The notes below the pieces were generated by a model that saw only the letters and a list, made by a program, of their open reading frames with translations, made no database searches and was not told the origin of the DNA. Source: Halomicrobium urmianum (GTDB lineage Archaea; Halobacteriota; Halobacteria; Halobacteriales; Haloarculaceae). From it: 64,000 bases of DNA. Shown here in pieces: positions 26,810 to 32,847 of this stretch. The position numbers and the translations under genes were made by a program. The stretch spans positions 2,666,001 to 2,730,000 of the forward strand of contig NZ_CP084090.1 of assembly GCF_020217425.1 (NCBI RefSeq), written 5' to 3'. Within the stretch, counting starts at the first letter, position 1. Each line of letters starts with the position of its first letter.

Positions 26810-29266
26810 ATGGAATTCCACGACGCGGCGAACTTTCTCCTCGACCTGCGGCGGTTCGCCCTGCGTCCCGGGACCGACGCCACCCGGGAGCTCCTCGCCG
26901 AGCTGGGCGACCCCCAGGAGGGGCTGGACTGCGTCCAGATCGCCGGCTCGAACGGGAAGGGCTCGACCGCCCGCATGGTCGAGCGGACGCTCCGCGAGGC
27001 CGGGCTGGACGTCGGTCTCTACACGTCGCCCCACCTCGACGACGTCCGCGAGCGGATTCAGGTCAACGGCCGGAAGATCCCCGAGGCCGACCTCGTCGAG
27101 TTCGTCGAGTCGATCGAGGCCTACGTCACCGACCGCGGGGCCGAGGGCTCGTCGCCGACCCTCTTCGAGACGCTGACGGCGATGGCCTTCTGGGAGTTCG
27201 ACCGCCACGACGTCGACGTCGCGGTGATCGAGGTCGGCATCGGCGGCAAGCTCGACGCCACGAGCGTGATCGATCCCGTCGCGAGCGCGGTCACCGCGGT
27301 GACGCTGGAGCACACGGGCATCCTCGGCGACACGACCGAGGAGATCGCCCGGGACATGGCTCACGTCGCGCCGGCCGACCGGCCGCTGGTCACGGGTGCG
27401 GAGGGCGACGCGCTGGCAGCAGCCGAGGAAGTGGCCGGCGACGTGGTCAGGGTAACAGGCGCATACGCCGACGGCGGCGGGACAGACGACGCCGACGTGT
27501 CCGTCGAGTACCGCGGCCGCGAGGGGCTGGAGGGCGCGGTGACGCTCGCCGGACCGGACTGGCGCGTCGAGACGCGCCTGCCCCTGCTGGGCGCTCACCA
27601 GGCCGCCAACGCCGGCGTCGCCGCGGCGCTGTGCCGACAGGTGGCCGACGTCGACGAGGCGACGCTGGCTCGCGGCCTGCGCAACGCCCACTGGCCGGGC
27701 CGGTTCGAGGTGATGGGCCGCGACCCGCTGATCGTGCTCGACGGGGCGCACAACCCCGGCGGGATCGAGCGCGTCGCCGAGACGCTCGACGAGTTCGACT
27801 ACGACGAGTTGCACGTCGTCGCCGGCGCCATGGTCGACAAGGATCTCCGCGAGATGGCCGGGCACCTCCCGGCGGACCACGTGGTCGCCTGTCAGCCAGA
27901 CGTCGACCGCGCCGAGGCCGACGACGTCGTGGCGCGGGCGTTCGCGGACGCGACCGACGCCGAGGTCGAGACCCGGGCCGACGCCGCGGGCGCGTTCGAC
28001 GTCGCCCGCGAGGCGGCCGACGAGAACGACTGCGTGCTGGTGACCGGATCGCTGTACGCCGTCGCCGAGGTGCGCCGCCGCTGGGTCCGCCCGCTGATCG
28101 AGAAGCGCCTCGACGACGTCGACGAGGCCCGGGAAGCGATAACGGACGCCCACGTCACCGACGCCGGTGCCTGGCGGATGGGCGGGAAGGCCGTCCACCG
28201 CGTCGTCCGGACCCGCGTCCAGCCTCGGCAGGCCAGCTACCTCAAGGAGGAACTGCTCTCGCTGGGCGGGGAGTGCGCCGTCTCCGGGCTGAACGAGCAG
28301 GACCGCGAGCCGGTCGACGTCCTCCTGATGGGGACCATGGCGCAGTACAAGCGCCTGGCCGAGAAGCTCGACGGCCAGCCCTACGGGCTCTCCGCGTTCG
28401 CCGACGAGTTACGGGCGGCGCTTTCCATCCAGCAGCCCGACGCCTCGCGGGGCTATCCCTGGGAAGACGGCACCGCCGTCATGGGCATCCTCAACGTGAC
28501 GCCCGACTCGTTCCACGACGGCGGCCGGTACGACGCCCGCGAGGACGCCGTCGATCGCGCCGAGGAGATGGTCGCGGCCGGTGCGGCGATCATCGACGTG
28601 GGCGGGGAGTCGACCCGCCCCGGCGCGGACCCGGTCCCCGTCGAGGAGGAGATCGACCGCGTCGTCCCGGTGATCGAGGAGGTTTCCGACCTCGACGCGA
28701 TGGTCTCGATCGACACGCGGAAGGCCGAGGTCGCCCGGGCGGCGCTTTCCGCCGGCGCAGACGTCCTCAACGACGTCTCCGGGCTCGAGGATCCCGAGAT
28801 GCGGCTGGTCGCGGCCGAGTACGACGCGCCCGTGGTCGTGATGCACAGCATCGAGGCGCCGGTCGACCCGGACACGGACGTCCACTACGACGACGTGGTT
28901 GGGGACGTGATCGACCAGCTCCGGGAGCGGGTCCTCCTGGCCGAGAAGGCCGGCCTCGACCGCGATCAGATCATCGTCGATCCGGGGATCGGATTCGGCA
29001 AGTCCGCCGCCGAGAACTTCGAGCTACTGGGGCGGACCCACGAGTTCGCGTCGCTTGGCTGTCCGGTGTTGATCGGCCACTCCCACAAGTCCTTCCTCGA
29101 ACCGGCCGGCGGCGAACCTGGCGACGCGCCCGACGCCACGGTGGCGGCGACGGCGCTGGCGGCCGAACGCGGCGCCGACATCGTTCGCGTCCACGACGTC
29201 GAGCGGAACGCGGCGGCCGTGAACGTCGTCGACGCGGCCGACGACCCGGGGTCGGTCGACGGCTGA
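26810..29266 (+). CDS. folCP: FolC-FolP fusion: folylpolyglutamate/dihydrofolate synthase and dihydropteroate synthase
   Basis: An 818-residue bifunctional folate enzyme. The N-terminal Mur-ligase-type FolC part has the P-loop GSNGKGST (46-53), the SPHLDDVRERIQVNG block and the ligase C-domain marks LIVLDGAHNPGG. Residues ~420-545 are the extra haloarchaeal linker domain (RMGGKAVHRVVRTRV to LSIQQP). From about residue 558, MGILNVTPDSFHDGG begins the dihydropteroate synthase TIM barrel, with DVGGESTRPGA, SIDTRKAEVAR and DPGIGFGKS. Such fusions are known in halophilic archaea and make dihydropteroate and add glutamate. TCTAAAG ~28 bp upstream fits a leaderless promoter. Confidence 0.95.
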   Translation: MEFHDAANFLLDLRRFALRPGTDATRELLAELGDPQEGLDCVQIAGSNGKGSTARMVERTLREAGLDVGLYTSPHLDDVRERIQVNGRKIPEADLVEFVESIEAYVTDRGAEGSSPTLFETLTAMAFWEFDRHDVDVAVIEVGIGGKLDATSVIDPVASAVTAVTLEHTGILGDTTEEIARDMAHVAPADRPLVTGAEGDALAAAEEVAGDVVRVTGAYADGGGTDDADVSVEYRGREGLEGAVTLAGPDWRVETRLPLLGAHQAANAGVAAALCRQVADVDEATLARGLRNAHWPGRFEVMGRDPLIVLDGAHNPGGIERVAETLDEFDYDELHVVAGAMVDKDLREMAGHLPADHVVACQPDVDRAEADDVVARAFADATDAEVETRADAAGAFDVAREAADENDCVLVTGSLYAVAEVRRRWVRPLIEKRLDDVDEAREAITDAHVTDAGAWRMGGKAVHRVVRTRVQPRQASYLKEELLSLGGECAVSGLNEQDREPVDVLLMGTMAQYKRLAEKLDGQPYGLSAFADELRAALSIQQPDASRGYPWEDGTAVMGILNVTPDSFHDGGRYDAREDAVDRAEEMVAAGAAIIDVGGESTRPGADPVPVEEEIDRVVPVIEEVSDLDAMVSIDTRKAEVARAALSAGADVLNDVSGLEDPEMRLVAAEYDAPVVVMHSIEAPVDPDTDVHYDDVVGDVIDQLRERVLLAEKAGLDRDQIIVDPGIGFGKSAAENFELLGRTHEFASLGCPVLIGHSHKSFLEPAGGEPGDAPDATVAATALAAERGADIVRVHDVERNAAAVNVVDAADDPGSVDG

Positions 29267-29355: not shown

Positions 29356-30567
29356 ATGGCAACCGAGTGCGCGGGGGGTCAGTGGCCGTTCGCGACTGCC
29401 GATCGATCGGCGTCTCACCGGTCCGTCGGCGCCGACGGCGCCATGGCAGTCCTGAACGCGGCCGCAGACGCGCTGGACACCGACGCCCTCGAGCTTCCGA
29501 CGCTCAACGACCGAGTCGATCCGGACTACCTCGCCCGCATTCTCGACGCGACGACGGCCGACGCCGGCGTCCGCGTCGCGATCGAAGTCTCCTTTCACGA
29601 CGTCCGGGTCCTGCTCACCGACGACGGGTGCGTCGCCGTCTATCCGGACGACGAGGCCGACGATCTCCGGCCGACGGCGACCGCCGACCACGACTGGACC
29701 GCCTCGGGGTCGCTCCTCGACACGGTGGCCGACGCCGTCGCGACCGCCGACGGGGCGGACGCCGTCTCGACGGAGGACCTGCTCCGACGAGTCGATCCCG
29801 AGGCGATCGACCGCGTCGTCCGACCGATGGCCGGCGGCACCGAGCGCGCCGACAGCCGCCTCCTGCTCTCGGTCGACGGCTACGAGGTGACCGTGACGCC
29901 CGACGGCCGGGTCGCCGTCGAGCCGTCGCTGTCGGCGCTCGAACGGGCCGGCGCGGCCCTGCTCGTCGTCGGCTCGGTCCCCGAGCGGGAGTTCGACCGG
30001 GCCGCCGCGGCGCTGCTCGGCGGGCCGGACGAGGAGCGGTGGCCTGTGTTCGTCCTGCACGGCCGCGGCGTCGAGACGGCGAACCGCCGGCTCTCGATGG
30101 CCGACGCGTCGCCCGGGACCGCGACGGTGCTCGATCACCGCGCCCGGGCGCGCAGCGGGGCGACGGCGGCGACGGGCAACGGCGGATCGAGCGACCCGCT
30201 GCCGAGCGTGATCCCGGTCGCCGAGGAGATGGACGCGCTCCCGGACGCGGTCAGGGAGACCGTCGGCGGGCCCGAGACGACTACCCCCGGCGAGCTCCGG
30301 CTCTGCGTCGACTCCCTGGGGTCGATGATCGAGGCGAGCGGTGCCGACGCCGTCCGGGACGCGCTGGAACCGGTCTGTCGAACCGTTCGCGAGCACCGCG
30401 GCGTCGGCCAGTTCCTGCTGCCGGTCGGCGCCGACGACGACGCGGTTCGACGGCTCGCTCCGTCGTTCGACGCCGTCGTGACGCTGCGGACCGGCGACGA
30501 CGGCGCCGAGCAGCGCTGGCGGCTGACGGGGACGGGCCACGAGACGTCGTGGTTCCCCGTCCGATGA
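29356..30567 (+). CDS. Tandem HalOD1 / DUF7504-like (RAD55-related) signalling protein
   Basis: A 403-residue protein. Residues ~30-97 and ~119-190 are two HalOD1-type domains in tandem (LPTLNDRVDPDYLARIL with VRVLLTDDGCVAVYP, and LLRRVDPEAIDRVVRP with YEVTVTPDGRVAVEP). The C-terminal part (~197-403) resembles the degenerate RecA/RAD55-like DUF7504 family, with LLVVGSVPE, ELRLCVDSLGSMIEASG and FDAVVTLRTGDD, but lacks a Walker A motif. HalOD1 domains are haloarchaeal output modules tied to signalling. The stop overlaps the ATG of the CHAT gene (ATGA), so the two are translated together. The upstream AATTATC at 29312 may be the TATA box. Family names are from memory; the fold assignment is inference. 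Confidence 0.7.
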   Translation: MATECAGGQWPFATADRSASHRSVGADGAMAVLNAAADALDTDALELPTLNDRVDPDYLARILDATTADAGVRVAIEVSFHDVRVLLTDDGCVAVYPDDEADDLRPTATADHDWTASGSLLDTVADAVATADGADAVSTEDLLRRVDPEAIDRVVRPMAGGTERADSRLLLSVDGYEVTVTPDGRVAVEPSLSALERAGAALLVVGSVPEREFDRAAAALLGGPDEERWPVFVLHGRGVETANRRLSMADASPGTATVLDHRARARSGATAATGNGGSSDPLPSVIPVAEEMDALPDAVRETVGGPETTTPGELRLCVDSLGSMIEASGADAVRDALEPVCRTVREHRGVGQFLLPVGADDDAVRRLAPSFDAVVTLRTGDDGAEQRWRLTGTGHETSWFPVR

Positions 30568-32627
30568 GCGTCGAACTGCTCGCCGCCGAGGACCGACCCG
30601 GACTCACCGTCGTCGACCGCATCGAGGGCCGACGCTTCCCCTTCACGACGCGGCGACCGGTCGACCCCGACCCGGGCGACGACGGGCAGTTCCGAGACCC
30701 GGTCGACGCCGCGGTACGCTGCCGCGTCGGCGAACTTGAACTGCCCTACGTCGTCGCGGCGTACGTCCGCGACGCCGACGGCGAGATGATCGGCGAGTGC
30801 CACGAGTTCGCCGACCGGGCGTTCCCCGACGGCGAGTACGAGGTGGAACTGGCCGCGCCGGTCAAGGTCTACCTGCGGGTCGCCGGTCCGCTGGCGATCG
30901 AATCGACCAGCGACGAGATGCGAATCTCCTTCGGGGAGCGCCGGCGGATCGACGTCGGCGCGCGCTCCTTCCACGAACACCCGGCGGCGACGGTCACGGC
31001 CACGGCCGCCCCCGAGGACCTGATGGCGACCGTCTCGACGTTCGGCTCCGCGCTGAAGACGACGAGTCCGGAGCGGTCCTTCCCCTCGCTTCGGGGCCAC
31101 CCGCCGACGGTCGAACTCGGGGACGCGCTCTCGGTCCCGGACGGGGTCGCGCCCCCGGAGACCGGACTGTGCGTCGAGGTGCCGCGCGAGCGGGCGGCCG
31201 TCTACGCCGTCGCGACGCTCGCCCACTACCTCGGCGCTCGCGTCCGTCCGGGCCCCGAACCGCGCCTGCTGGCGGACGGTGAGGTCCTGCGGGTCCTCGA
31301 CGGTCCGAGCGGCCTGGAGAGAGCCGTCACGGAGACGCTCAGGCACCTCTTCCTGCTCGACTGCGTCGTCCGGACCGAGGGCCGGTACCGGCTCGACCTC
31401 CACGAACGGCGTCGGCTCGAAGAGCGGGTCGATCTGCCGCTCCGGGACCTCTATCACGCTCCGATCGCCGAGCGGACGCGGCGATACCTGGACGTCGGCG
31501 CCGAAGCCGTCGACGATCTCGTGCCGCGGTGGACGCTCGCGACGCACCTCTCGCCGTCGCCCGACGCGGCGGAACTGCTCCCCTACGCGGCGAACGCCCT
31601 CTCGCTGATCGCCGTCGAGCGCCCGGGATCCGACGGCGACCGATCGGCGCCGCCGCCCGGGTACGACGCGTTCGTCGAAGCCGGCGAGCCTGTCGCGACC
31701 GGCGACGGGGCCGACGGGGAGCGCTACGTCCACGTGTCGGGTCCCGACGCCATCGAGCGGGCCTGGTTCGGCGACGGACGCGCCGTGAACGCCAACGACC
31801 TGCACCCGGCCGGCGCCAGGAACAGGCTCGCCGGCGAGTCGAGCGACGGACCGGTCGAGATCGCGCTGGTCTGCAACGACGAGCGGATGGCCGAAGAGGT
31901 CGGCGACGGCGACCTGTACGGCGACCGCGAGGAACTCCCCTTCGAGGTCGACGTCCACCGCGAGGTCACGCGCGAGCGACTGCGGTCGCTGCTCGCCGAG
32001 GACCTGGACTTCCTCCACTACGTCGGCCACGTGGAGCGGTCGGGACTGATCTGTCCCGACGGTGCGCTCGACGCCGCCGGCCTGGACGCGGTCGGCGTCG
32101 ACACCTTCCTCCTGAACGGCTGCCGCTCCTACGATCAGGGACGGCTCCTCGTCGAGGAGGGCGCCGTCGGCGGCATCGTCACTCACGGGGCCGTCGACGA
32201 CGCGAACGCGACGGCCGTCGGTCGCCTCGTCGCCAGCCTCCTCAACGCCGGCTACTCGCTGCGGTCGGCGCTGGCCGTCGTCGGCCGCCGCTACGCCGTC
32301 GAGGGTCGCTACGACGTGGTCGGCGACGGCGCCGTCCAGATCGCCCAGTCGGAGAGCGGGACGCCGAACCTCATCTCGGTCTCCTCGGCGGAGGACGGCT
32401 ACGAGGTGCAGATTACGACCTACCCCGCGCTCGGGACGGCGATGGGCGCCTGCTACACGCCCCACACCCCCAGCGTGGACCGGCACTTCCTCGTCGGCGG
32501 CGAGCTACCGCCGTTCGAGCTGTCGCTGCCGGAGGTGGTCAACCTGCTCTCGCTGGAACGGGTGCCGGCGACGATCGACGGAGAACTGCGCTGGTCGACG
32601 GACGTTTCGCCTGCCGATCTGCCCTAG
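30564..32627 (+). CDS. CHAT domain (caspase-like) protein
   Basis: A 687-residue protein. The C-terminal third carries a CHAT/caspase-like signature: LHYVGHVERSG around His489 and FLLNGCRSY with Cys520. The 31-residue spacing and the ICPDG/LDAAGL segment between them match the H-G...C dyad region of CHAT proteases. It is followed by VTHGAVDDANATAVGRL and a helical tail as in that family. Residues 1-170 look like a beta-rich domain; ~190-350 is helical and could be a sensor. I recognise no peptidase cofactor or TPR repeats. Its ATG overlaps the upstream HalOD1 gene and its stop shares a CTAG with the opposite-strand mini-gene. The protease role is inferred from the dyad. Confidence 0.75.
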   Translation: MSVELLAAEDRPGLTVVDRIEGRRFPFTTRRPVDPDPGDDGQFRDPVDAAVRCRVGELELPYVVAAYVRDADGEMIGECHEFADRAFPDGEYEVELAAPVKVYLRVAGPLAIESTSDEMRISFGERRRIDVGARSFHEHPAATVTATAAPEDLMATVSTFGSALKTTSPERSFPSLRGHPPTVELGDALSVPDGVAPPETGLCVEVPRERAAVYAVATLAHYLGARVRPGPEPRLLADGEVLRVLDGPSGLERAVTETLRHLFLLDCVVRTEGRYRLDLHERRRLEERVDLPLRDLYHAPIAERTRRYLDVGAEAVDDLVPRWTLATHLSPSPDAAELLPYAANALSLIAVERPGSDGDRSAPPPGYDAFVEAGEPVATGDGADGERYVHVSGPDAIERAWFGDGRAVNANDLHPAGARNRLAGESSDGPVEIALVCNDERMAEEVGDGDLYGDREELPFEVDVHREVTRERLRSLLAEDLDFLHYVGHVERSGLICPDGALDAAGLDAVGVDTFLLNGCRSYDQGRLLVEEGAVGGIVTHGAVDDANATAVGRLVASLLNAGYSLRSALAVVGRRYAVEGRYDVVGDGAVQIAQSESGTPNLISVSSAEDGYEVQITTYPALGTAMGACYTPHTPSVDRHFLVGGELPPFELSLPEVVNLLSLERVPATIDGELRWSTDVSPADLP

Positions 32628-32755
32628 CCCGTCGTCGAGCCGTTGGCGGCGATGGCGGAACCGGCCTGAGTCAGCAAGATGCAGGCCGTCAGGAGGGCGC
32701 CCATCAGTCGCGGGTGGTCGGCGAGGAACTCGGTCAGAGCGTTTCGTTCGGACAT
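32624..32755 (-). CDS. 43-residue membrane peptide (DUF7503-like)
   Basis: Starts MSERNALTEFLADHPRLMG, has one hydrophobic helix (about residues 18-36, ALLTACILLTQAGSAIA) and ends NGSTTG. The arrangement of a polar helix, TM helix and short polar tail, and the NALTEFLADHPR block, match very small haloarchaeal proteins I recall as DUF7503. It is convergent with the CHAT gene; the two stop codons overlap in a CTAG. It has its own promoter. It could be a partner, anchor or substrate of the CHAT protein; this is inference from position only. Confidence 0.7.
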   Translation of the reverse strand: MSERNALTEFLADHPRLMGALLTACILLTQAGSAIAANGSTTG

Positions 32756-32800
32756 TGCACCTAAGTGTGAAATTTGTAACAATATCTGTTTTGTGGCTCG

Positions 32801-32810
32801 TTTATAATAA
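32801..32810 (-). promoter_or_regulatory. TATA box of the 43-residue membrane peptide gene
   Basis: On the minus strand the sequence reads TTATTATAAA, about 46-55 bp upstream of the ATG at 32755, giving a predicted leader of ~24 nt. The surrounding 32756-32847 region is the most AT-rich in this part of the window, typical of a strong or regulated haloarchaeal promoter. Confidence 0.55.
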
Positions 32811-32847
32811 CTAATTGGTGAGTACTCGATCACAACGTTTCTCCGAG

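Follow-up and report, generated by a model that had tools for sequence, protein, structure and literature searches.

In Halobacteria, the DUF7503 micropeptide is obligately paired with a protein predicted to be a cysteine protease of clan CD, and its short variable tail co-evolves specifically with one C-terminal region of that protein. The pair was recognised in a stretch of Halomicrobium urmianum DNA (64,000 nucleotides, the whole of which is called the window here), where the protease gene is preceded by a gene for a HalOD1-DUF7504 protein (Table 1). The three open reading frames sit where the original prediction placed them, as do the ATGA overlap at 30564-30567 that joins the HalOD1 and protease genes, the CTAG at 32624-32627 common to the peptide and protease stops on opposite strands, and the residues His489 (HYVGHV) and Cys520 (LNGCRS). 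The neighbourhood in other genomes also bears the prediction out: the gene order is repeated across Halobacteria, so that the arrangement is conserved and not due to chance, and the genes are real.

Table 1. Positions of the cassette features within the window
Feature	Position	Strand	Basis or remark
HalOD1-HalOD1-DUF7504 protein gene	29356..30567	+	403 aa; ATGA couples translation to the protease gene
CHAT/caspase-fold (clan CD) cysteine protease homolog gene	30564..32627	+	687 aa; ORF, homologs, model pLDDT 84.9, fold matches
N-terminal beta-sandwich domain of protease, residues 1-141	30564..30986	+	Model pLDDT 90.4
Two-subdomain clan CD protease region, residues 322-596	31527..32351	+	Structural matches
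His489 codon, HYVGH motif, predicted catalytic	32028..32030	+	112/112 aligned homologs
Cys520 codon, LNGCRS motif, predicted catalytic	32121..32123	+	112/112 aligned homologs
Protease C-terminal region 600-667, proposed peptide-binding site	32361..32564	+	Mutual information and sister-pair co-change with tail
DUF7503 micropeptide gene, convergent with protease gene	32624..32755	-	43 aa; Pfam DUF7503 (PF24335) 4e-16
Signal-peptide-like part, residues 1-36: P15-R16, hydrophobic core, G32 (-5), A34-x-A36 (-3/-1)	32648..32755	-	
Variable C-terminal tail, residues 37-43 (ANGSTTG), proposed mature peptide / ligand	32627..32647	-	
AT-rich peptide promoter region with TATA-like box	32756..32815	-	GC 0.30 vs 0.70

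The micropeptide and its protease

Every DUF7503 peptide found in a set of 44 genomes (39/39) is convergent with and adjoins a protease gene, at a median gap of ~23 nt. The peptide is absent from all 20 genomes that lack the protease, and none was found in 69 genomes outside Halobacteria. Viewed from the protease side, a convergent peptide follows the gene in 74/81 cases in the named genomes, an automatic count that misses a few, and 213 of 233 sampled protease genes have one (some loci were fetched twice), which leaves ~9% with no recognisable peptide. Six related protease genes of one genus (g51; L131, L160, L163, L167, L179 and L195) have none recognisable within ~700 nt downstream. That protease and peptide are functionally linked has strong support.

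The 687-aa protein matches no Pfam family above cut-off, and searching PDB sequences with the family profile was uninformative. Its AlphaFold2 model, built from a 30-sequence alignment, came out in favour of the caspase-like fold that had been proposed: residues 322-596 match gingipain R (Z 18.3), separase (Z 16.3), SAVED-CHAT (Z 15.6) and Craspase TPR-CHAT (Z 13.9), so that the modelled protein is of the clan CD (caspase/gingipain/separase/CHAT) fold. Further, the proposed dyad is invariant in the aligned homologs, and both features expected of a clan CD peptidase, the caspase-like fold and the conserved His/Cys dyad, are found. From the fold matches and the dyad we infer proteolytic activity. 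The window protease gives no match to Pfam CHAT (PF12770) over the curated cut-off; 4/30 homologs match that family, with a best E of 0.019. No obvious export signal is seen in the protease. The N-terminal domain bears a weak resemblance to galactose-mutarotase-like and YidC periplasmic folds (Z 8.4 at best, 5-8 otherwise), perhaps reflecting just a common arrangement, and these matches are too weak to assign it an identity. Residues 330-587 also match DdvA, a myxobacterial transmembrane anti-sigma factor (Z 16.8).

The 43-aa peptide scores 58.8 bits against the DUF7503 cut-off of 27. Across 186 distinct pairs the peptides follow one plan: a polar start, an invariant Pro (186/186) followed by Arg or Lys (183/186), a hydrophobic core, a Gly at -5 (176/186), an A/V-x-A/G motif obeying the -3/-1 rule (172/186 by the strict form, 181/186 by the permissive one) and a tail. 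The tails are mostly 7-9 residues long and 166 of the 186 are distinct; they differ between paralogs of one genome and frequently end in GP. Where residues are inserted between A-x-A and the tail, the last seven residues stay much the same. The n-region is slightly negative on average (mean -0.35), unlike that of a typical Sec signal peptide. By the -3/-1 rule alone, the peptide resembles a signal peptide to which a short variable tail is attached more than a plain transmembrane anchor, and the membrane target or anchor originally envisaged fits it less well.

The peptide gene appears to have its own promoter, as had been claimed. In the window, the 60 bases upstream are 30% GC against 70% for the window and contain a TTATAAA box. 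Over 100 loci the region before the peptide ATG has a mean GC of 0.37 versus 0.63, with a TATA-like match in 55 at a median of 35 nt upstream; this AT-rich region and frequent box point to a dedicated promoter. The 3' ends of the two genes converge, as might be expected of a type I toxin-antitoxin pair whose hydrophobic toxic peptide is silenced by antisense RNA, but they overlap by only 4 bp in the window.

Co-evolution of the tail and the protease

Co-evolution was analysed by mutual information in 186 peptide-protease pairs (effective number 122). In all eight of the strongest couplings, a tail residue from 38-43 is linked to a protease residue from 600-667. With clades defined at a threshold of 0.5, within-clade shuffles never reached any of these eight (0/40 each); at a tighter threshold of 0.35 several were reached, the top coupling included. 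In 81 sister pairs, with distance removed, only the combination of the tail with residues 600-667 was in excess on both co-change measures (0/500 permutations). The hydrophobic signal part showed no excess co-change with residues 600-667, nor did the tail with residues 668-687. Since the latter residues are nearest to the tail in the DNA and give no signal, DNA linkage was rejected as its source. Couplings of peptide C25 with the protease were accounted for by phylogeny. Co-change this specific to the tail and residues 600-667 indicates that the two probably make direct physical contact. Co-evolution cannot, however, separate a ligand from a substrate or an inhibitor.

Possible modes of action

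The best explanation, which we advance tentatively and with slightly less than even confidence, is that the tail serves as a ligand dedicated to the protease, likely released as a pheromone-like signal, with the HalOD1-DUF7504 protein as a possible output. The core of such a system would be a cytosolic cysteine protease of clan CD (CHAT-type) and a DUF7503 micropeptide dedicated to it, which is expressed from its own convergent promoter and made up of a Sec-type signal peptide and a tail usually 7-9 residues long. This tail would bind residues 600-667 of its own protease and switch the activity on or off, every paralogous pair keeping a private match of tail and pocket. Signal peptidase would most likely free the tail, which could then serve as a short-range pheromone-like signal that is re-imported by the cell. 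If the signal part works, the tail is predicted to be extracellular, yet it co-evolves with a protein lacking an evident export signal; a released, re-imported peptide, as found in RRNPP systems, would explain both. Where present, the HalOD1-DUF7504 protein would be the likely output or first target; it is a natural candidate because it is co-translated with the protease. Some features speak against this explanation. Binding of a secreted tail would require re-uptake, or else binding before export; the n-region has the slightly negative charge noted above; and the ~9% of protease genes and most members of a second subfamily (see below) appear to have no peptide. The broader proposal of signalling throughout Halobacteria, in which a secreted, pair-specific peptide of ~7-9 residues gates an intracellular caspase-fold protease with HalOD1-DUF7504 as output, is possible but doubtful.

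The main alternatives are binding before export and a peptide retained in the membrane. The latter could be a regulatory subunit whose tail tethers the protease and holds it in an inhibited or primed state until a signal comes, perhaps via the HalOD1-DUF7504 protein. The strict pairing and the co-evolution of the tail with the C-terminal region are consistent with such a subunit, as is the hydrophobic stretch, which is long enough to span the membrane and contains a conserved Q and small residues. The tail would, however, have to be cytosolic, while the sole conserved positive charge lies on the N-terminal side and favours an N-in orientation. Further, the small-residue pattern past the hydrophobic core fits the signal-peptidase rule and the spacing between core and tail varies, and a tethered subunit seems rather unlikely.

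We consider it unlikely that the peptide is a substrate, with the tail docking on the C-terminal region and a cut after Pro-Arg/Lys, or within the tail, freeing a membrane-active piece. Gingipain and separase, the closest folds, are Arg/Lys-P1 enzymes, which would suit the nearly invariant Pro-Arg/Lys of the peptide, and protease position 543 is acidic in 95/112 aligned homologs. This position is, however, Ala in the window protein and does not track Arg versus Lys; no clear covariation of the peptide Arg/Lys with residue 543, or co-evolution of the Pro-Arg/Lys site with the protease, was seen, and the site is equally well explained as a helix cap and positive flank. A toxin-antidote or defence module, in which the protease would either neutralise a membrane-active micropeptide or kill in response to phage signals, is very improbable: the small hydrophobic peptide, the convergent 3' ends and the variable folCP-GNAT slot would suit it, but none of the three proteins has a PADLOC match, no phage or viral-contig relatives were found, homologs occur in 93% of the sampled genomes of the class, and a protease gene of 2.1 kb that occurs as several paralogs does not resemble a simple toxin-antidote pair, so that the cell-death or defence framing of the original prediction was set aside.

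Several known systems resemble parts of the preferred ligand explanation. Gingipains and separases are the best structural matches and share the two caspase-like subdomains, but identity is 7-18% and the N- and C-terminal parts differ; we know of no peptide partner of the DUF7503 kind for either. RRNPP systems (Rap-Phr, PlcR-PapR, AimR-AimP) use a precursor of ~40-45 aa, with a signal part and a short C-terminal active peptide, encoded beside the gene of a cytosolic receptor, and their pairs diverge into private types. A short precursor, a signal part (by the -3/-1 rule only), a variable C-terminal peptide and a gene beside the partner gene are likewise found here. Unlike RRNPP receptors, which have a TPR fold, the partner here is of caspase fold; further, the host is archaeal, the genes are convergent, and export and uptake are presumed. 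Craspase (TPR-CHAT/Csx29-Csx30) and SAVED-CHAT share the fold class, the His/Cys dyad and the control of a protease by a partner, control being a proposal here. No CRISPR, TPR or SAVED part is seen here, in contrast to those systems, the protease falls under the Pfam CHAT cut-off, and it is paired with a signal-peptide-like peptide of 43 aa whose tail co-evolves with it. Csx29 is described as a CRISPR-activated endopeptidase (PMC10028731).

Quorum sensing in Haloferax volcanii involves a secreted, unidentified signal of <=3 kDa, the response to which needs DdfA and CirA (PMC12240190). The HalOD1 part of the companion protein has a sub-cut-off NCBIfam DdfA match. DUF7503 is itself present in Haloferax volcanii. 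The density signal survived proteinase K and is called a small molecule by the authors (PMC12240190), so that a DUF7503 tail is a possible identity for it and nothing firmer. The hypermotility protein HVO_2248 (PMC7824242) was considered as a relative, and no evidence for this was found.

No open-access paper that we found describes the protease. We likewise found none in that literature that names DUF7504, or that pairs Haloferax volcanii with a CHAT domain or haloarchaea with a CHAT protease. The evolution of the tail in step with one region of the protease points to a protease under peptide control, a type with no earlier description. If the ligand explanation is true, archaea have caspase-fold enzymes gated by private peptide tails, and a secreted tail would be, to our knowledge, both the first genetically encoded archaeal peptide signal and the first peptide signal with a protease as its receptor. 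As leads rather than results, the genes named here make two questions testable: which gene accounts for the caspase-like activity that Haloferax volcanii is reported to have, for which none is known (PMC3615174), and whether haloarchaea communicate by peptides, where the density signal is a starting point (PMC12240190).

The companion gene and the distribution of the cassette

The tandem HalOD1 arrangement of the 403-aa protein was confirmed by Pfam, which matches two HalOD1 stretches (PF18545, 1.3e-24, 86.6 bits) as well as DUF7504 (PF24336, 1.5e-35, 123.7 bits), both above cut-off; for the C-terminal half, originally called RAD55-like, the family matches are to DUF7504/DUF7090. Against the NCBIfam DdfA model (NF053557) it scores 63.1 bits, below the cut-off of 70. 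Of the three-gene cassette originally proposed, the link between protease and peptide holds, but the HalOD1-DUF7504 gene is not a fixed part: a DUF7504 gene lies directly upstream in ~39/81 cassettes, and its product carries two, one or no HalOD1 copies, as judged by the aligned range. At the genome's own second protease copy, the DUF7504 gene lies beyond the peptide. DUF7504 is a large general family with 1-15 members per genome and is present in protease-less genomes as well, which rules out HalOD1-DUF7504 as a fixed core; the gene often accompanies the pair, but more loosely. In cassettes that lack DUF7504, ten upstream ORFs gave no Pfam match, and several of these are probably wrong frames.

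Of 391 Halobacteria genomes, 365 have a protease homolog, in some cases on a plasmid, yet the protease is entered as a hypothetical protein in most plasmid records. A second, more distant subfamily (L111, L113-L117, L120) keeps its synteny and is mostly without DUF7503; it sits between two genes that we take to be those for a serine hydroxymethyltransferase and a TbsP-like protein, the second being present in most members. The His/Cys dyad is also present in this subfamily except at L119 (G175:C1:1209500-1217500), a protease paralog in which both catalytic residues are lost (His to Asp, Cys to Tyr) and which is likely a pseudo-enzyme. At L120 (G100), a convergent 60-aa peptide ~100 nt past the protease gene repeats the plan of the other peptides, with HPR, a hydrophobic core and an end reading NGHSTATGP; the DUF7503 model missed it.

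Among the 30 nearest loci the same neighbours recur. The nearest relatives of the window copy (61-69%) are in other families, one of them on a 230-kb plasmid, and the folCP-GNAT gap that holds the window cassette contains other genes in two congeners; the window copy therefore probably arrived by acquisition, even though members of the family occur widely in the class. Named by eye, this slot is filled in one of the congeners by a PIN-like gene and its small partner, and in the other by a creatininase-like gene (L126 in G281 and L127 in G138). The upstream neighbour of the cassette in the window (26810-29266, 818 aa) looks like a fused folate enzyme of the FolC-FolP type and is conserved in the genus.
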